Assembly (NCBI RefSeq): GCF_008041935.1
Contig: NZ_VKAC01000005.1
Location: 186,001 to 250,000 of the forward strand
DNA: 64,000 nucleotides
Reading direction: 5' to 3'
Source of the DNA: Quadrisphaera setariae
GTDB taxonomy: Bacteria > Actinomycetota > Actinomycetes > Actinomycetales > Quadrisphaeraceae
Shown: piece by piece, positions 47,383 to 56,233 of the stretch
How the letters are laid out: the number at the start of each line of letters is the position of its first letter
Numbering within the stretch: the stretch's first letter is position 1
Notes under the pieces: generated by a model
What the model saw: only the letters and a program-made list of their open reading frames with translations
What the model was told of the DNA's origin: nothing
Databases searched by the model: none
Program-made: the position numbers and the translations under genes

Positions 47383-49029
47383 TCACTGCCGGGGGAGGCG
47401 CACCCTCACGGTGAGGCCCCCGCCGGGCGTCTCGTCCAGCGCGATCCGCCCGCCGTGGCGGGTCACGATGCGCTGCGCCGTCGCCAGGCCCAGCCCGTGC
47501 CCCGCCACCGCTGCGCCGGTGGCGGGTGCGGTGCCGGTGCGGTGGGCGCCGCGCTCGAAGGCGCGGAACACCGCGGCGCGCTGGTCGGTCGGGACGCCGG
47601 GACCCTGGTCGGCCACCTGGAGCTCCCAGGCGCCGGGCAGCTCCTCGACGGCGCAGGTGACCACCGCAGGCTCCCCGGGCCGGGTGAACTTCAGCGCGTT
47701 GCCCACGAGGTTGGTCAGCAGCTGGTGCAGCTGCACCGGGTCACCGACGAGCACCGGCGACGTGGTCGGCAGCGCCACGACGGCTCCCTCGGGGACGGTC
47801 AGGTCGGCCAGCACCGCCTCCAGCAGGGGGCGCAGCGGCACCTCACGCTGGGGTGCTCCGCTGGGCGCCCCGGCGGTGGCGTAGGCGAGCAGCCCCTGCA
47901 GGAGCGAGGCCATGCGACCCGCGCTGCGCCGGGCCGTGGTGGCCCACCCGACGGCGCGCGCGTCTGCGCGGTCGGCGGCGTCGTCCTCGAGGACCTCCAG
48001 GTAGCCGTCCACCACGGTCAGCGGCGAGCGCAGGTCGTGGGCGGCGATGCCCGCGAAGGCCTCCAGCTCGGCGTTGGACCGCTCGAGCTCCGCGCGGACG
48101 GCCCGCTCGGCGCTGACGTCGGTGAGGGAGGCGACCACCCCGGAACGCTCCCCGGAGCCGGTGGTGAGGGCCCGCGTCCGGCACACGCAGGTCACGGCGG
48201 CGCCGTCGGCGCTGGTGAAGACCAGCTCGGTCTCGGCCTCGCCGCCTGCGGCGAGCGTGCCCAGCAGGGGCCCGCGCACGGCGGACAGCACGGTGCCGGG
48301 CGGGTCGGCGCACAGCGCGGTGGTGGCGGCGCGGGCCGCGCCCGGCGCGTCCAGGTCCTCGGGCAGGCCCGCCCAGGTCCGCACGAGGGGGCTCAGCACG
48401 CTGACGCGGCCCGCGGCGTCCAGCGCGACCACGCCGACGTCGGCGGTGTCGAGGACGGCCTCGAGCAGGTCGTGGCGGTCAGCGAGGCCGGCCTGCGCCA
48501 GCGCGACGCGCTGGTCCGCGGCGGCGACGGCGGCGGCGAGCCCGCTCAGGGCCCGGGACTGCCGATCGGCCGTCACCGAGCTGGCGGCGAGGAGGGCGAG
48601 GTCGGCCAGGGCCTCCTCGCGCTCCCGGCTGGGGGGGTGCGGCACCTCGTCGCGCGCCACGATCACGGCCAGCAGGCCGCCGCCGGGACGGGTGACGGGC
48701 ACCGCGGCGAGCGCGCGGGTGCGCGCGATGCGCCCGTCCACCCACGGGCTGCCGGCCGTCTCGGGTGCCGCGGCCGCGTCGGGCAGGTGCACGGCGGTGC
48801 CGCGCTCGGCGGCGAGGGCGCCGAGGGAGGTGGGCAGGAGCTGCTCGGCCAGCTCCAGCGACGCCCACGGCCAGCCGGTGGCGGCGCGCACGCGGCGCAG
48901 GAGGGCGGTCCGGGCGTCGGTCTCGCGCGGCGCCGTCGACGTGCCCGGTGCGACCGGTGCGATGGCCGCGGCAGCTGTGGTGAGCGGCGCTGCGACGGCG
49001 GCCTGCTGCTCGACCGGGCTGCTGGGCAC
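47383..49029 (-). CDS. Cytoplasmic sensor histidine kinase (GAF-PAS-HisKA-HATPase)
   Basis: A 548-residue soluble kinase. A GAF-like domain (about 40-170) is followed by a PAS-like segment (DLLEAVLDTADVGVVALDAAGRVSVLSP, about 185-290). HisKA has the H-box AGIAAHDLRSPLTVVDGYLEVL (His near 330), and HATPase_c has the N-box LLTNLVGNALKF and GHGLGLATAQRIVTRHGG. Such HisKA/HATPase pairs are common in light or redox sensors; the ligand is unknown. GTG 49029 chosen because CAGGAGG precedes it by 5 bases; GTG 49044 is upstream. Divergent from the receiver operon and likely its kinase. Confidence 0.9.
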   Translation of the reverse strand: MPSSPVEQQAAVAAPLTTAAAAIAPVAPGTSTAPRETDARTALLRRVRAATGWPWASLELAEQLLPTSLGALAAERGTAVHLPDAAAAPETAGSPWVDGRIARTRALAAVPVTRPGGGLLAVIVARDEVPHPPSREREEALADLALLAASSVTADRQSRALSGLAAAVAAADQRVALAQAGLADRHDLLEAVLDTADVGVVALDAAGRVSVLSPLVRTWAGLPEDLDAPGAARAATTALCADPPGTVLSAVRGPLLGTLAAGGEAETELVFTSADGAAVTCVCRTRALTTGSGERSGVVASLTDVSAERAVRAELERSNAELEAFAGIAAHDLRSPLTVVDGYLEVLEDDAADRADARAVGWATTARRSAGRMASLLQGLLAYATAGAPSGAPQREVPLRPLLEAVLADLTVPEGAVVALPTTSPVLVGDPVQLHQLLTNLVGNALKFTRPGEPAVVTCAVEELPGAWELQVADQGPGVPTDQRAAVFRAFERGAHRTGTAPATGAAVAGHGLGLATAQRIVTRHGGRIALDETPGGGLTVRVRLPRQ

Positions 49030-49074
49030 GGGAACCTCCTGCACGGGCCGCGGGTGCGGCGGTGTCCACCTGGC

Positions 49075-49304: not shown

Positions 49305-49679
49305 ATGACCACCGTCCTCGTCGCCGACGACGACCTCGACATCCGCGAGCTCGTCGCCTTCAAGCTCACGCAGGCCGGTTACGAGGTGCGCTCCGCTCCC
49401 GACGGCGCCGCGGCGCTCGACGCGGCCCGCGCCGGCGGGGTGGACATCGTGGTGCTCGACCTCATGATGCCGGGGCTGTCCGGCCTCGACGTGTGCGCCG
49501 AGCTGCGCCGCAGCGAGCAGACCGCCGAGCTGCCGGTCATCATGCTCACCGCCCGGGCGCAGGACCAGGACGTCGCCAGCGGCTTCGCCGCCGGTGCCGA
49601 CGACTACGTGGTCAAGCCCTTCAGCCCCCGCGAGCTCGTCAGCCGCGTCCAGGCCGTGCTGGGGCGGACCCGGCCGTGA
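49305..49679 (+). CDS. Stand-alone response-regulator receiver (CheY/SpoIIR type)
   Basis: A 124-residue receiver with no output domain. Acidic pocket in VLVADDDLDIRE, phospho-acceptor Asp in IVVLDLMMPGLSGLDV (about residue 52), Thr in IMLTARAQD and Lys in VVKPFSPREL. It must act by protein contact, perhaps with the HEAT protein encoded next. GGAGGCACC precedes the ATG. The stop overlaps the next GTG, so expression is coupled to the HEAT gene. Confidence 0.95.
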   Translation: MTTVLVADDDLDIRELVAFKLTQAGYEVRSAPDGAAALDAARAGGVDIVVLDLMMPGLSGLDVCAELRRSEQTAELPVIMLTARAQDQDVASGFAAGADDYVVKPFSPRELVSRVQAVLGRTRP

Positions 49680-50893
49680 CCTTCCTCGCCGTCGTCGTCG
49701 CCGGCCTCGTGGCCGTCTCGGCCGCGGTGCTGGCGCTGGCCCTGGCGATCGCCGCCGCCCGCGGTCTGAGGGCGCGCCGCGAGGCGCGCCGCCGGGCCGT
49801 CGCCGAGCCGCTGCGCCCCCTCATCCTGGAGGTGGCCGTGGGGGAGGGGGAGGAGTCCGCCGCTGCTGCCGACGACCTCTCCGCGCTGGACCCCGCGGCC
49901 TGGCGGACCGTGGAGCCGGCCGTGCTGGCCGTGCTGGGCAAGGTGCGCGGCGACGGGCAGCGGCTCCTCGTGGAGCTGCTGGCCGTCCGCGGGGTCGTCA
50001 CGCGCGAGCGGGAGCGCCTGCGCTCGGCCAGCGCCGTGCGCCGCGCCGCCGCGGCCGAGCTGCTGGGCGCGGCCGCGTACGCGCCCGCCGTGACCGAGCT
50101 GGCCGACCTCCTGCACGACCGCGACGCCGAGGTGCGCCTCGTCGCGGCGCGCGCCCTCGGCCGCGCCGGCGCCCCCGGCGCCGTGGGCGTGCTCGACGAC
50201 GACGCCACAGCCCGCGCCGCCCGGGCGCTGCTCGGGGCGCTCGCCGGCGAGCGCCCCGCCGCGCCCCCGGACGTGGTGGCCCGCTCGCTGCTGCTGCTCG
50301 GCGCCCCGGCCGCTGAGGCGCTGCGCGCCGCGCTCGCCGACCCGGCGGCGCGCGTCCGCCTGACCGCCGCCGAGGTGCTCGGCCGGCTCGGTGCGAGCGC
50401 GGCCAGCCGCGACCTGGAGGACCTCGTGCTGCGTGACCCCTCGGACGAGGTGCGCGCCCGCGCCGCGACGGCGCTCGGCCGCATCGGCGCGCCCTCGGCG
50501 GTGTCCGCCCTGCGCGCCGCGACGAGCCCGTCGAGCGCCGCCGCCGTGCGGCGCGCCGCCGTGGTGGCCCTCGGCGAGGTCGGCGACCCCGCGGCGCTGC
50601 GCTGCCTGTGGACCCTGCTCGGGGACGACGACGACCACCTCGCCGACGCCGCCGCGGCGGCCCTGCTCGCCCTGGGCGCCCCCGGTGTGCGGGTGCTCGC
50701 CCAGGTGGCCTCCCAGGCGGACGGCGGGTCGGCGCTGGCGGTGGACCGCGCCCACGGCGTGGTCGCCTGCGCCGTGCTGGCGGAGGTGCTGCCCGCCGCA
50801 GGCCTCGCCGAGGTCCAGGCCGTCGAGGCCGCGACCGCTGCCCGTGACGCCGCCGCCCGTGACGACTCCGCGCTCGTGGGGGCCGGCGCGTGA
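49676..50893 (+). CDS. Membrane-anchored HEAT-repeat protein
   Basis: A 405-residue protein with one N-terminal helix (about 2-26) and a basic patch (RARREARRRA), then alpha-solenoid HEAT repeats. Repeat cores include YAPAVTELADLLHDRDAEVRLVAARALGRAGAP, LRAALADPAARVRLTAAEVLGRLGAS, LEDLVLRDPSDEVRARAATALGRIGAP, and AAAVRRAAVVALGEVGDP with LRCLWTLLGDDDDHLADAAAAALLALG. HEAT arrays are protein-binding scaffolds. Wedged between a receiver and a polysaccharide synthase, all by 4-base overlaps, it is the natural adaptor between signal and synthase. That role is inference. Confidence 0.88.
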   Translation: MTFLAVVVAGLVAVSAAVLALALAIAAARGLRARREARRRAVAEPLRPLILEVAVGEGEESAAAADDLSALDPAAWRTVEPAVLAVLGKVRGDGQRLLVELLAVRGVVTRERERLRSASAVRRAAAAELLGAAAYAPAVTELADLLHDRDAEVRLVAARALGRAGAPGAVGVLDDDATARAARALLGALAGERPAAPPDVVARSLLLLGAPAAEALRAALADPAARVRLTAAEVLGRLGASAASRDLEDLVLRDPSDEVRARAATALGRIGAPSAVSALRAATSPSSAAAVRRAAVVALGEVGDPAALRCLWTLLGDDDDHLADAAAAALLALGAPGVRVLAQVASQADGGSALAVDRAHGVVACAVLAEVLPAAGLAEVQAVEAATAARDAAARDDSALVGAGA

Positions 50894-52482
50894 GCGGGCT
50901 GCTGGCGGACGCGCTCGGCGCCGTCGCCGACAGCGCCGGCGCCTGGGGCCTGCAGGCCCAGGCCGACCTGGCCAGCGGCACCGTGCGCGGCACGGTCGCG
51001 GTGCTCGTGCAGGTGCTGGCCGTGCCGGTGCTCCTGTACGTGCTGGCCATCAACTCCAGCTACCTCGTGCTCATCGGCCTGGCCGGCGTGGACATGGTCC
51101 GCTACCTGCGCCGCGGCTTCTTCCGCGGTGTGGAGGACGCCAGCGCCTCCCCGCTGACGCAGTCGGTGTCCGTGGTGATGCCCGCCTTCGACGAGGAGGC
51201 CTCCGTGGTGGGCTCGGTGAGCGCCATGCTCGCTCTGCGCCACCCGCGCCACGAGGTCGTCGTCGTCGACGACGGCTCCACCGACGCCACGTTCGCGCTG
51301 CTGCGCGAGGCCTTCGACCTGGTCGAGGTGCCCCGTCGTCTCCCCACCGACGTCCCCGTGCGCGGTGCGGTGCGCAGCGTGCACGTGCCCCGCGGCGGTC
51401 GCTCGCCGCTCGTGGTGGTCCGCAAGGACAACGGCGGCCGCGCCGACGCCGTGAACGCCGGGATCAACGCCGCTCGCCACGACCTGGTCTGCATCACCGA
51501 CGCGGACTCCGTCCTGGACCCCGACGCGCTGCTCACCGTCTCCCGGCCGTTCGCCGACGACCCCGAGCGCGTGGTGGCCACCGGTGGTGCCGTGCGCGCC
51601 GTCAACGGCTCGACGCTCGTCGGTGGGCGTGTGGCCGACGTCCGGATGCCCCGCGGCTGGGTCGCCCGCTTCCAGGTGGTGGAGTACCTGCGCGCGTTCT
51701 GCGTGGGGCGCGCGGGCTGGTCACGCCTGCAGTCGCTGGTGCTCATCTCCGGCGCGTTCGGCATGTACCGCCGCGACGTGCTGGTGGAGGTGGGCGGCCT
51801 CGACCCGACGTGCATCGGGGAGGACTTCGAGCTGACGCTGCGGCTGCACCGCCACATGCGCGAGAGCGGCCGCGACCACCGCGTGGTGTTCGTGCCCGAG
51901 CCGGCCAGCTGGACCGAGGTGCCCGCGACCAGCGCCGTGCTGGCCCGCCAGCGCCGCCGCTGGCAGCGGGGCCTGGCCGAGACGCTGTGGCGCCACCGCG
52001 CGATGGTCGGCAACCCCCGCTACGGCCGCATCGGCCTCCTGGCGCTGCCGTACTACGTGCTCTTCGAGCTGGTCGCCCCGGTCATCGAGCTGGTGGGTGT
52101 GGTGCTCACCCCGCTCGCGGTGGCCTTCGGGGTGGTGCCGTGGAAGGCGGCGCTGCTGCTCATGGTCCTCTGCTACGGCTACGCCGTGGTGGTCACGGTG
52201 GCGGCGCTGCTGGTGGAGGAGCTCTCCTTCCACCGCTCCCAGCGCTGGCGCGACCTGGCGCGCGGCCTGGCCGCCGCCGTGCTGGAGAACGTCGGGCACC
52301 GCCAGCTCACCGCCCTGTGGCGCGTGCAGGGGCTGTGGTCGCTGCTGCGCGGCCAGCAGCAGGTGTGGGGTGCCATGGACCGCCAGGGCCTGGCCGCCGG
52401 CGCCTCCGCCGACGGCGGCGACGTGGTGCACCTGCCTGAGACCCGCGCCTCCCGGCGAGAGCTCGCGGAGGCCGGCCGGTGA
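50890..52482 (+). CDS. Membrane GT2 processive synthase (PgaC/HasA/cellulose-synthase-like)
   Basis: A 530-residue polysaccharide synthase. One to two N-terminal helices (about 36-75) are followed by the GT-A domain. SVSVVMPAFDEEASVVGSV and VVVVDDGSTDATFALL bind nucleotide; KDNGGRADAVNAGINAARHDLVCITDADS gives the DxD. TCIGEDFELTLRLH provides the base, and ARQRRRWQRGLAETL is the Q-x2-R-W-like acceptor motif of processive enzymes. C-terminal helices about 375-450. It should polymerise and export a beta-linked glycan from one active site. Coupled on both sides by GTGA overlaps. Confidence 0.92.
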   Translation: MSGLLADALGAVADSAGAWGLQAQADLASGTVRGTVAVLVQVLAVPVLLYVLAINSSYLVLIGLAGVDMVRYLRRGFFRGVEDASASPLTQSVSVVMPAFDEEASVVGSVSAMLALRHPRHEVVVVDDGSTDATFALLREAFDLVEVPRRLPTDVPVRGAVRSVHVPRGGRSPLVVVRKDNGGRADAVNAGINAARHDLVCITDADSVLDPDALLTVSRPFADDPERVVATGGAVRAVNGSTLVGGRVADVRMPRGWVARFQVVEYLRAFCVGRAGWSRLQSLVLISGAFGMYRRDVLVEVGGLDPTCIGEDFELTLRLHRHMRESGRDHRVVFVPEPASWTEVPATSAVLARQRRRWQRGLAETLWRHRAMVGNPRYGRIGLLALPYYVLFELVAPVIELVGVVLTPLAVAFGVVPWKAALLLMVLCYGYAVVVTVAALLVEELSFHRSQRWRDLARGLAAAVLENVGHRQLTALWRVQGLWSLLRGQQQVWGAMDRQGLAAGASADGGDVVHLPETRASRRELAEAGR

Positions 52483-54551
52483 AGGGGGCCCAGCCGCTCG
52501 CCGTCGGCCTGCGCGGCTGGCTGGCGCTGCTCGTGGTGCTGCTCGTGGTGCTCGGAGGGGCTGGCGCAGCCTCCCTGCTGCTCAGCGACGCCCGCCACAC
52601 CGCCACCGCCCGCCTGGACGCCCTGTCCCGCACGAGCAGCGCCCTCGTGGTGGCCGCCTCCGACGCCGGCGCGGCCCGGGGCCCGCAGGCGCAGGCCGTG
52701 GAGGTCTCCGCCCTCGCGCGGAAGGTGCGGGCCCTGGCCAGCACAAACGCGGAGCGCCGCGCGGTGGAGCGCGAGGTCTCCGCCGCGCAGGCCCGGGTCC
52801 AGCGCGGCCCGTCAGCGGCTGCACCGGCGCCGGGAGACCCTGACGACCTGCTCGCCGCGCACCAGGCGCTGGCCGAGGGGGTCTCCACCGAGCTGGCGCG
52901 GCTGCGCGAGCAGCAGGCGCGCGCCCGGGACACCTCCCTCGTCGTCGTCGGGCTGCTCCTCGCGGGCGCCCTGACCCTCACGCTGCTCCTCGCCGTGCAG
53001 GTCCGCCGGAACCTGGTGGAGCCGCTCGTCGACGTGTCCTCCGTGCTGGGCGCGCTCACCTCCGGCGACCACGCGCGCCGCGCCGACACCGCTCGCGGTC
53101 CCGCCGAGGTGCGCGCCGTGGCGGGCTGGGTCAACGCCTTGGCCGACGAGGGCGCCCGCACCCGGGCCGCCGCGGAGCGGTCGGCGGAGCTGCGGCGCCT
53201 GGCCAGCGAGGTCGGACGGCTGGCGCGCGACCCGATCGACCCGCAGGCCTCCCTCGACGAGGCCCTGCGCGTGCTCGGCGAGGGCCTGGCGGTGGACCGG
53301 GCCTGGGTGCGTCTGGTCGACACCGCCCAGGGCGCCCCGTGGGGGCTCCGCAGCGACGGCCTCGACGGCCTCGACCGCGCCGACAGCACCGACCGCACCG
53401 CCACCGGCAGCGCCATGGCCCCCCTGCAGGGCAGCTGGAGCCGGGACGGTGCACCCGCGGTGGTCGAGGAGGTGGGGGAGGCCGCCGCGTCGCTGCCCGA
53501 CTGGCTCCAGCGGGCGTGGGACGCGGACGGGCACTTCGCCGTCGCCGACCTGTCCGCACTCGTGGCCAGCGGCGCCGCCGAGCCGGCCACGGTCGACTTC
53601 GCCGCCCGCACCGGAGCCGCCGCGGTGCTGCTCGTGCCGGTCGGTGCCGGTGAGGCCGCTGTCGGCGTGCTCACCGTCTTCACCCACGAGGGCCCCCGCG
53701 CGTGGACCGACGAGGAGGTGGCCCTGCTGCGCTCGGTGGCCTCCGACCTCGGTCGCGCCGTGGTGGTCACGCGCCTGTTGGCCGGCTCCGAGGCGCTGGT
53801 GGAGCAGCTGCGCGAGCTGGACGTGCGCAAGTCGACGTTCCTCGCCACCGTCTCCCACGAGCTGCGCACGCCGCTGACGAGCATCGCCGGCTACGTCGAG
53901 ATGCTGCGCGAGGGCGGCGCGGGGGAGCTCGACCCCGGCGTGGACCGCATGCTCGCCGTGGTCGAGCGGAACACCGTCCGCCTGCGGGTGCTCATCGAGG
54001 ACCTCCTCGCCCTGTCCCACATCGAGGACGGAGCGCCGCGCGGCGTGCACGAGCCCGTGGCCGTGGGGGAGCTGGTCCGGGAGGTGGTCGACCGGCACCG
54101 CGCCGCTGCAGCGGCCGCCGGCGTGCGGGTGGAGGTGGACGTCGACCTCGACGCCGAGCTCCTCGGCGCGCTGCGCGTCGCCGGGGACCCGGCCTCCCTG
54201 GGCCGAGCCCTGGCCGGGCTGGTCTCCAACGCCGTGAAGTTCACGCCGTCCGGCGGGTCCGTGCTGGTGCGCGCGCTGCGAGAGGGCCCGCACTGCCTGG
54301 TGGAGGTGGTCGACACCGGCATCGGCATCCCGCTGGGGGAGCAGGGCGGGCTCTTCACCCGCTTCTTCCGCGCCAGCAACGCCACAGCCCTCGCCGTGCC
54401 CGGGGCTGGGCTGGGTCTGACCATCGCGCGCTCGCTCGTGGAGCACCACGGCGGTCAGCTGTCCATCGCCTCCACCCCCGGCTCGGGGACGACGGCGAGG
54501 GTGCTGCTGCCCAGCGCCGCCCCCGCCGAGGCGGTCCCCACCCCGTCCTGA
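52479..54551 (+). CDS. Membrane sensor histidine kinase (2TM-HAMP-GAF-HisKA-HATPase)
   Basis: A 690-residue kinase. Helix 1 about 14-36, an extracytoplasmic helical sensor about 37-147, helix 2 about 148-170, HAMP about 171-225, GAF about 240-430. The H-box is STFLATVSHELRTPLTSIAGYVEML (His near 459), the N-box LVSNAVKFTPSG, then VEVVDTGIGIP and GLGLTIARSLVEHHGG. Last gene of the four-gene operon. With the cytoplasmic kinase at 47383 it gives two candidate donors for a single receiver. Confidence 0.93.
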   Translation: MKGAQPLAVGLRGWLALLVVLLVVLGGAGAASLLLSDARHTATARLDALSRTSSALVVAASDAGAARGPQAQAVEVSALARKVRALASTNAERRAVEREVSAAQARVQRGPSAAAPAPGDPDDLLAAHQALAEGVSTELARLREQQARARDTSLVVVGLLLAGALTLTLLLAVQVRRNLVEPLVDVSSVLGALTSGDHARRADTARGPAEVRAVAGWVNALADEGARTRAAAERSAELRRLASEVGRLARDPIDPQASLDEALRVLGEGLAVDRAWVRLVDTAQGAPWGLRSDGLDGLDRADSTDRTATGSAMAPLQGSWSRDGAPAVVEEVGEAAASLPDWLQRAWDADGHFAVADLSALVASGAAEPATVDFAARTGAAAVLLVPVGAGEAAVGVLTVFTHEGPRAWTDEEVALLRSVASDLGRAVVVTRLLAGSEALVEQLRELDVRKSTFLATVSHELRTPLTSIAGYVEMLREGGAGELDPGVDRMLAVVERNTVRLRVLIEDLLALSHIEDGAPRGVHEPVAVGELVREVVDRHRAAAAAAGVRVEVDVDLDAELLGALRVAGDPASLGRALAGLVSNAVKFTPSGGSVLVRALREGPHCLVEVVDTGIGIPLGEQGGLFTRFFRASNATALAVPGAGLGLTIARSLVEHHGGQLSIASTPGSGTTARVLLPSAAPAEAVPTPS

Positions 54552-54563
54552 CCCCCTCGCCGT

Positions 54564-54660
54564 GATCATGGACGCTGCCGGCAGAACTCCCCGTGATCAT
54601 GGACTTCGCCGACGGCGGCTCCCATGATCACGGCCGGTGGTGCCGGCAGCGTCCATGATC
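54564..54660. repeat. Nested palindromic GATCATGG element between convergent genes
   Basis: Outer perfect 20-base arms 54564-54583 and 54641-54660; inner perfect 12-base arms 54591-54602 and 54622-54633. Four GATCATGG/CCATGATC cores in under 100 bases. It ends against the stop of the convergent oxidoreductase. Looks like a dispersed repeat and can fold as a bidirectional terminator. Confidence 0.75.
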
Positions 54661-56233
54661 ATGGCCGGGTGGGGGGCTGTTGGGGAGCGGAGGCGCGGGC
54701 GGCGCGGACCAGGTCGAGCGGGTCGCGGCGGTCTCCGAAGCGCTGCCGCAGCACCCGCCGCGCGGTGTGGACGCCGTTCATGCCGTGCACGGCCGGCCCG
54801 GGCGGCGTCGCCGCGCCGCACAGGTAGGTGCCGTCCAGGCCCGGGACCCGGTACGGGTCCCACCGCGGCAGCGGGCGCATCACGAGCTGCCACGGCGTGA
54901 CGGCCCCGGCCGCCACGTCGCCGCCGGGGATGCTCGGGTTCTCCGCGCCCAGCTCGGCGGCCGTCGTCGTCGTGCTCGCCAGCACGAGGTCGCGGAAGCC
55001 CGGCGCGAAGCGCTCGACCTGCGCGGTGACGTCGGCCTCGAGGTCGCGCCGGGAGCCGCGCGGGGCGTGGGCGTAGGTCCACAGCGTGTGCCTCCCCGCC
55101 GGGGCGCGGGTCGGGTCGACCACGCCCGGCTGCACCACGATGCAGAAAGGCCGGCGCGGGTGGCGGCCGGCGCGCACCTCCCGCTCCGCAGCGCGGACCT
55201 CCGCGCGCGTGCCCCCGAGGTGCAGCGTGCCCGCCTCCGCCAGGCCGGGCGCGGCCCAGGGCACCGGGCCCGACAGCGCGTAGTCGACCTTGCAGACCGC
55301 CCCGCCGTAGCGGTAGCGCCGCAGCTGCGCGGCGACGCTCGCCGGCAGCCGGTCGCCGGCGACGTCGAGGAGCCCGCTCGGCGTGAGGTCCAGCAGCAGC
55401 GCCCGCGCCCGGGGCAGCTCCGCGAGGTCGTGCACCCGGTGACCGAGCACCACGGACCCGCCGAGGCGCTCCAGCTCGGCGACCAACGCGTCGGCCAGCG
55501 CCTGGCTGCCACCGCGCGCCACGGGCCAGCCACCGGCGTGCGCCATCGCGGCCAGGTAGAGGCCGGCACCTGCCGACGACAGGTCGCGCGGGTCGCCGAT
55601 GTTGTGCGCCGAGGCGCCCGTCAGCAGCGCCGGCGCCTCCTCGGTGCGGAACCTGAGGTCCCACGCGGGGGTGCCCTGCTCCAGGGCCCGCAGGCCCAGC
55701 CGCACCGCCGTCGCGGCGGTGGCCGCGACCCCGGCGGGCGTCCGGGGGACCCCGGGGAAGGTCCGCAGGTCGGACTGGGTGAGCGAGACGACCTCCCGCG
55801 TGCGCTCGACCAGCGGCCCCAGCAGCGAGCGCCAGGCGGCGCCGTCGCGGCCCAGGCCCTCGGCGGTGCGCTCCAGGCTCCTGTGGGCCAGGGCGGCGCG
55901 GCCGCCGTCCAGGGGGTGGCCGAAGGGGGTGTCGGGCTGCAGCCACTCCACGCCGGAGGCGCCGAGGTCGAAGGCGTCGAAGAACGGGCTGACGGCGCCG
56001 GCGGGGTGGGCGATGGAGCAGTGGTCGTGCCGGAAGCCCGGCAGCGTGTTCTCCACCGTGCGCGTGCCGCCGCCGGCCTGCTCCGCCTGCTCGCGCACCT
56101 GCACCCGCAGCCCCGCGCTCGCCAGCACCACCGCCGCTGAGAGGCCGTTCGGTCCGGCTCCGACGACGACGACGTCGACGTCCTCGCCGTCGTGGGTCCT
56201 GCTGCCGCTGGGCCGGACCGGTGGGGTGCTCAC
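54659..56233 (-). CDS. Phytoene-desaturase/carotene-isomerase-like FAD oxidoreductase
   Basis: A 524-residue flavoprotein of the CrtI/CrtISO-like amine-oxidase superfamily. N-terminal VDVVVVGAGPNGLSAAVVLASAGLRVQVREQAEQAGGGTRT is the FAD-binding site. C-terminal GTYLCGAATPPGPAVHGMNGVHTARRVL closes it. GHPARGGSQALADALVAELERLGG-type substrate-domain block present as VARGGSQALADALVAELERLGGSV. No other carotenoid gene is nearby, so the substrate is open. GTG 56233 has TAGCCT 7 bases upstream and no ribosome-binding site: leaderless. Only 36 bases separate it from the divergent ppx. Confidence 0.88.
   Translation of the reverse strand: MSTPPVRPSGSRTHDGEDVDVVVVGAGPNGLSAAVVLASAGLRVQVREQAEQAGGGTRTVENTLPGFRHDHCSIAHPAGAVSPFFDAFDLGASGVEWLQPDTPFGHPLDGGRAALAHRSLERTAEGLGRDGAAWRSLLGPLVERTREVVSLTQSDLRTFPGVPRTPAGVAATAATAVRLGLRALEQGTPAWDLRFRTEEAPALLTGASAHNIGDPRDLSSAGAGLYLAAMAHAGGWPVARGGSQALADALVAELERLGGSVVLGHRVHDLAELPRARALLLDLTPSGLLDVAGDRLPASVAAQLRRYRYGGAVCKVDYALSGPVPWAAPGLAEAGTLHLGGTRAEVRAAEREVRAGRHPRRPFCIVVQPGVVDPTRAPAGRHTLWTYAHAPRGSRRDLEADVTAQVERFAPGFRDLVLASTTTTAAELGAENPSIPGGDVAAGAVTPWQLVMRPLPRWDPYRVPGLDGTYLCGAATPPGPAVHGMNGVHTARRVLRQRFGDRRDPLDLVRAARASAPQQPPTRP

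Follow-up and report, generated by a model that had tools for sequence, protein, structure and literature searches.

The processive synthases known to be under post-translational control mostly read cyclic di-GMP (c-di-GMP), and the processive glycosyltransferase family 2 (GT2) enzyme BcsA is regulated after translation. The stretch of Quadrisphaera setariae DNA analyzed in this study (64,000 nucleotides, positions 186,001 to 250,000 of contig NZ_VKAC01000005.1; hereafter the window) carries an operon in which the genes for a lone receiver, a HEAT-repeat protein, a membrane GT2 and a histidine kinase (HK) stand consecutively on the plus strand (positions 49305-54551, from the list of open reading frames (ORFs) and their translations). 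We found that this module is real and widely conserved, and we place it among the regulated processive GT2 synthases. No account of a receiver-HEAT-GT2-HK set was found among the open-access papers listed, a scope that excludes subscription papers and bioRxiv.

The E. coli NfrB/NfrA system resembles this module in having a membrane GT2 that combines processive motifs with a regulatory part, and a TPR/beta-barrel exporter as in the Mesorhizobium cassette described below, but NfrB binds c-di-GMP through its own MshEN domain (available text of PMC8669469). The window GT2 is not an NfrB: the window has a separate HEAT protein and receiver instead, and no MshEN Pfam domain was detected in any of the four proteins (E up to 0.01). 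Receiver-GT2 fusions are known in Methanobacteriaceae, MTH_548 being an example; here too a receiver is tied to a BcsA-like GT2 of Pfam family PF13641, but the two form a single polypeptide and no HEAT protein is mentioned in the available part of PMC5847659, the comparison being one of description only. The HEAT_PBS protein OE2401F of Halobacterium salinarum is required for the action of phosphorylated CheY on the archaeal motor (available text of PMC2666748). It is similar in that a lone phosphorylated receiver depends on a HEAT protein for its action on a membrane machine, but that machine is a motor and not a synthase, and the likeness is drawn by description, not by sequence. Other candidate precedents were rejected. 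The accessible text on HmrABCX of Caulobacter mentions no HEAT protein, and that pathway acts via c-di-GMP (PMC11481889); D. radiodurans DrRRA acts by transcription (accessible text of PMC10778927); and where HEAT and glycosyltransferases come up in the accessible portions of PMC12419801 and PMC7159879, the context is unrelated.

The D, DxD, ED and QxxRW motifs and the membrane helices of processive GT2 enzymes are all present in the window GT2 (Glyco_tranf_2_3, 93.4 bits by Pfam). Residues D128, D204, D206, E311, D312, Q354, R357 and W358 are invariant over 71 alignment rows, and hydropathy places hydrophobic stretches at residues 30-67 and 381-447. Its AlphaFold2 model (predicted local distance difference test, pLDDT, 90.3) is matched best in Foldseek by the folds of hyaluronan, chitin and cellulose synthases at about 12-19% identity. 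The hyaluronan synthases 9yq5, 8sne and 8smn, for which we know of no HEAT partner, are the top matches but share only about 16% identity with it. The closest NCBIfam match is the poly-GlcNAc synthase PgaC/IcaA, which to our knowledge has no HEAT or receiver partner; with 114.7 bits against a TIGR03937 cut-off of 422.3, the window GT2 is not a member of that family. Nor is it a BcsA, with which it has the processive fold in common, considering that it scores 41.3 bits with TIGR03030 (cut-off 699.1) and that the window proteins have no PilZ domain by Pfam.

An earlier note on this DNA, made from the letters alone, had described four genes joined by 4-base GTGA overlaps, a receiver without output domain and a membrane-anchored HEAT protein, and it was right on each: three GTGA junctions were found with all genes on the plus strand (Table 1), Response_reg (108.8 bits) is the sole Pfam match in the receiver, and the HEAT protein combines HEAT_2 repeats (79.9 bits by Pfam) with one strong membrane helix, at the N terminus, by hydropathy. 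Under automatic start choice, a -4 overlap was counted at 45 of 86 receiver/HEAT junctions and at 49 of 91 HEAT/GT2 junctions, six near-duplicate loci being included in these counts. With a HisKA- and HATPase-containing kinase and a receiver that has the D/D, D, T and K residues, the operon has the parts of a two-component system.

The set proved not to be confined to close relatives when its neighborhood was examined more widely, and it crosses phyla and a domain of life. Among the close relatives, matches to the window HEAT protein were found in 19 of 59 genomes, own genome included, and 16 of the 18 regions taken from the other genomes have receiver, HEAT and GT2 consecutively on one strand; of the two exceptions, one stops at a contig end (L033), and the other, from a fragmented assembly, has a truncated HEAT and no receiver (L037). 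We also scanned species genomes with the GT2 alignment and took the best 80 of at least 575 relatives. Removal of the duplicates L096 and L106 left 78 named loci, 70 of them with at least 1.6 kb of upstream DNA and 8 with less; as labelled, they are Actinomycetota of many families, including Solirubrobacter and Acidimicrobiaceae, plus one Bacillota (L117). HEAT adjoins GT2 in all 70 named loci with enough upstream DNA, and a receiver lies directly upstream of HEAT in 61 of the 70 and within 8 kb in 68.

A HEAT-profile search of 296 genomes of the phylum gave matches in 76, and 40 regions with full-length matches were examined (among the matches listed, G241, G252 and G329 lie unexamined outside these 40, and G000 and G028 were already covered). 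GT2 stands beside HEAT in 39 of these regions, the remaining one (L126) ending at a contig end, and 31 regions have a receiver no more than 2.5 kb upstream, irrespective of strand, that of L139 belonging to a kinase frame. In the control, 20 regions of 3.7-12 kb around generic, partial HEAT matches, several of them cut by contig ends, none had a GT2 or a receiver. Conversely, when GT2 was used to search the same genomes, 44 places scored at least 479 bits. By coordinates, 38 of them adjoin a HEAT hit among the HEAT matches listed; a sensitive scan detected HEAT at four others (19-39 bits), and the remaining two are cut off by the contig end. The pairing of HEAT and GT2 is thus near-obligate in both directions, because it holds for 39 of 40 regions picked by HEAT and for 38 plus 4 of 44 places picked by GT2. 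The named and phylum sets are not wholly independent, since L121 of the phylum sample and L098 of the named set, whose contigs are equal in length, appear to come from one contig. In L156, the HEAT that drew the region was missed by the follow-up scan, though it is flanked by receiver and GT2. Six of the 40 regions (L132, L135, L136, L137, L140 and L146) pair a full-length HEAT with a much more divergent GT2 (only 117-175 bits) and lack an upstream receiver; in L146, a receiver lies about 3.5 kb downstream from where HEAT starts. These are possibly a sister system.

Outside Actinomycetota, 199 genomes of the phylum of L117 were searched, and a HEAT match was found in 73; 20 regions in 19 genomes were examined. 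All five near-full-length HEAT matches have an adjacent GT2 and a nearby receiver (downstream in L183), and none of the 15 other matches has a GT2, three of these 15 aligning from profile position 12-34. A search of plasmid records gave 57 matches, 40 of them listed, and 18 were examined (H2 and H3, also above 192 bits, lie outside this set). In all 12 examined records of at least 192 bits, HEAT lies directly upstream of GT2; they come from Mesorhizobium, Devosia, Erythrobacter, Haloarcula, Salinirubellus, Halosolutus, D. radiophilus, Paenibacillus, Planococcus, Emticicia, Bacteroides and Legionella adelaidensis. In the Paenibacillus record, which has no annotation over this stretch, HEAT was detected by the profile and Pfam, and the Emticicia HEAT protein falls just below the Pfam cut-off (25 vs 27.7). 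A receiver is in the neighborhood in seven of the 12. The six examined plasmid GT2 records of at most 152 bits have no HEAT, three having a deacetylase domain or a DUF2334 neighbor and three standing in other contexts. The Haloarcula order of receiver, HEAT, GT2 and GAF kinase is that of the window, and the Mesorhizobium cassette comprises kinase, receivers, TPR/YaiO barrel, HEAT, GT2 and Hpt. In the Planococcus maritimus plasmid (L209), HEAT-GT2 follows genes annotated as polyphosphate polymerase, DUF4956 and CotH kinase, with no receiver. The HEAT-GT2 pair spans Bacillota, Alphaproteobacteria, Deinococcota, Bacteroidota, a Legionella plasmid and haloarchaea.

An apparent single-frame fusion of HEAT and GT2 in L138 was rejected, as its C-terminal stretch resembles a wrong frame and points to a frameshift, either genuine or a sequencing error; by eye, a second frame in this DNA terminates in a GTGA junction, and in the relative L133, HEAT overlaps GT2 by 4 nt. 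No natural fusion was accepted from same-frame scans of the loci.

Because of the neighborhood counts within and beyond Actinomycetota, we regard HEAT-GT2 as the core of the module, the receiver, its commonest third partner, as a frequent input and the kinase as a variable input. The near-obligate pairing strongly supports the view that the HEAT protein belongs functionally with the synthase. The receiver of the window is likewise marked by its sequence as cassette-specific and apart from the other receivers of its genome, because 76 of 111 cassette receivers, including that of the window, form one fork of the receiver tree (n = 140; support 100/93) that only two own-genome receivers, both long-branch, join. 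This tree leaves out nine duplicate or near-duplicate loci and includes 29 of the 38 other receivers of the own genome. The window receiver scored 200 bits, compared with 134 bits for the next receiver of its own genome.

Considering these results, we suggest that the operon probably encodes a glycan synthase gated by a two-component system, in which the phosphorylated receiver, acting on HEAT, switches the synthase. The kinase, with its GAF domain and extracytoplasmic sensor, would phosphorylate the receiver, a step proposed because of the protein families. The phosphorylated receiver would dock on HEAT, which may lie as a regulatory subunit against the cytosolic face of GT2, and the receiver-bound HEAT would alter synthase activity post-translationally; the receiver-HEAT and HEAT-GT2 steps are suggested because of co-occurrence and two published precedents. 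Only tentatively do we extend this to a synthase class found throughout prokaryotes, in which a dedicated membrane HEAT subunit would read a phosphorylated lone receiver and gate a processive GT2 without second messenger or transcription. If true, a two-component signal could directly start or stop matrix synthesis, also in archaea and Actinomycetota, as a counterpart to c-di-GMP gating, and many lone receivers and HEAT proteins would gain functions. The three-protein core is small enough for reconstitution.

Several observations weigh against this circuit. The HEAT-GT2 pair does not need a receiver, because it occurs without a nearby upstream one in nine of the 40 phylum regions and without an annotated or detected one nearby in five of the 12 plasmid records. 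Of the 40 phylum regions, 11 have a divergently transcribed gene as their nearest receiver. The linkage of the kinase to the cassette varies: of the 57 named loci with both flanks, 33 have a downstream kinase on the same strand, 5 have a downstream kinase on the opposite strand and 13 have an upstream one, and no kinase was seen in the other 6. The receiver tree was built from few alignment columns, and one origin across phyla is neither shown nor excluded by it. Residues 101-120 are the most conserved stretch of the receiver, and OmpR-type receivers have much of this conservation in common, so that the conserved last third could merely reflect descent from an OmpR-type regulator. As for the archaeal precedent, the binding partners demonstrated for OE2401F are CheD and OE2402F, and CheY itself is not among them (available text of PMC2666748). 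The reading in the earlier note is partly supported: its partnership of HEAT and synthase is strongly backed by the near-obligate pairing, and its receiver input is supported but not universal (61/70, 31/40 and 7/12).

That HEAT is instead a constitutive assembly or stability subunit, the receiver and kinase being merely co-transcribed and signaling elsewhere or buffering phosphate, would explain why the pair persists without an upstream receiver in the nine phylum regions and in the Deinococcus, Paenibacillus, Bacteroides, Planococcus and Legionella plasmid records. It is rather unlikely, considering that a receiver lies directly upstream of HEAT in most named loci, that this receiver stands apart from the others of its genome and that a receiver recurs beside the pair in archaea and Alphaproteobacteria. 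The control could also be as proposed and the product different, namely a short glycolipid or glycoconjugate instead of a long secreted polymer. GT2 families include non-processive enzymes, and no polysaccharide export or modification gene was recognized, by eye and without annotation, among the recurring neighbor clusters of 91 actinobacterial loci, where several clusters recur in 20-24 loci and the nameable ones look like housekeeping genes (by eye). The QRRRW motif and the processive synthases among the top fold matches argue the other way, as do the genes annotated as YaiO-family beta-barrels in three Gram-negative plasmid records (that of Mesorhizobium also by Pfam), which would suit polymer export, and a short product seems quite improbable.

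The earlier note had also proposed control without c-di-GMP. This claims more than the sequences support: Pfam detected neither PilZ nor any other known c-di-GMP domain in the four proteins, but the own genome (G000, 4.9 Mb, actinobacterial) has 56 GGDEF matches, indicating a large c-di-GMP network. A synthase that is under the main control of c-di-GMP and takes only a secondary input from the receiver would fit this network and the response of the processive GT2s BcsA and NfrB to c-di-GMP (available text of PMC8669469). We consider it very unlikely, in view of the missing domains and of the presence of the module in haloarchaea, archaeal response regulators being described as lacking GGDEF/EAL output domains (available text of PMC5847659). 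Gating by the phosphorylated receiver through HEAT remains our preferred interpretation.

In the AlphaFold2 model of the HEAT protein (pLDDT 95.5), the solenoid lies between an N-terminal helix of about 50 residues and a long helix at the C terminus, and the model matches designed alphaRep and other HEAT/ARM proteins in Foldseek. The family is variable (mean column identity 30%), with G92, R123 and D148 invariant. The conserved KVRG stretch near the membrane end is a plausible candidate contact site. In the receiver, D9, D52 and K104 are invariant and D10 and T82 are kept in at least 90% of 42 sequences. The neighbors of the Halosolutus cassette (glmS and a sugar-phosphate nucleotidyltransferase) and of the Legionella cassette (a nucleotide-sugar dehydrogenase and epimerases) may serve as the sole hints to the donor sugar of GT2.

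Table 1. Positions of the operon features and of the neighboring kinase in the window.
Feature	Positions	Strand	Remarks
Receiver gene	49305-49679	+	124 aa, ATG start; GGAGG immediately 5' of start; single-domain, OmpR/PhoB-like; D9/D10, D52 (codon 49458-49460), T82, K104 kept
HEAT gene	49676-50893	+	405 aa (ORF and translation); membrane-anchored HEAT-repeat solenoid; N-terminal membrane helix at about residues 3-28 within helix to residue 55, then repeats
GT2 gene	50890-52482	+	530 aa (ORF and translation); membrane GT2 with processive-synthase motifs D128, D204-A-D206, E311-D312, Q354-RRR-W358 (51949-51963)
HK gene	52479-54551	+	690 aa (ORF and translation); two-helix membrane sensor kinase; extracytoplasmic part, HAMP-like, GAF, HisKA, HATPase_c
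GTGA overlap receiver/HEAT	49676-49679	+	
GTGA overlap HEAT/GT2	50890-50893	+	
GTGA overlap GT2/HK	52479-52482	+	
Conserved K89-V-R-G92 stretch in HEAT	49940-49951	+	near membrane end
Divergent PAS-HisKA-HATPase kinase	47383-49044	-	Pfam; without strong membrane helix by hydropathy

The HK of the window matches HisKA (69.4 bits), HATPase_c (82.7) and GAF (33.8) in Pfam, its HAMP match of 17.2 lying under the cut-off of 25, and has two strong membrane helices by hydropathy. CHASE3 was found by Pfam in two of four homologous kinases scanned and not in the window HK. A match to the divergent PAS kinase occurs near the cassette in all eight same-genus or same-family regions (L022-L028 and L030), covering the kinase part only in L027; in two of the eight it lies on the cassette strand, downstream of HK. 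It is possible that this kinase is a second input to the cassette.

In 12 of 68 loci (L028, L030, L047, L053, L058, L062, L063, L070, L071, L078, L085 and L088), the cassette receiver is directly preceded by a second lone receiver with intact aspartate, and an Hpt gene is present in the Mesorhizobium and Devosia plasmid cassettes; because of these genes, true phosphorelays are likely in some lineages.

In the intergenic region 3' of HK (54552-54672), four 15-mers like CCGTGATCATGGACG are spaced exactly 31 nt apart inside a 60-nt inverted repeat. The 13-mer CGTGATCATGGAC has 44 copies in the own genome, partly paired at 31 or 32 nt, compared with 0 for the reversed control. By its sequence features, this element is classed as a REP-like repeat.

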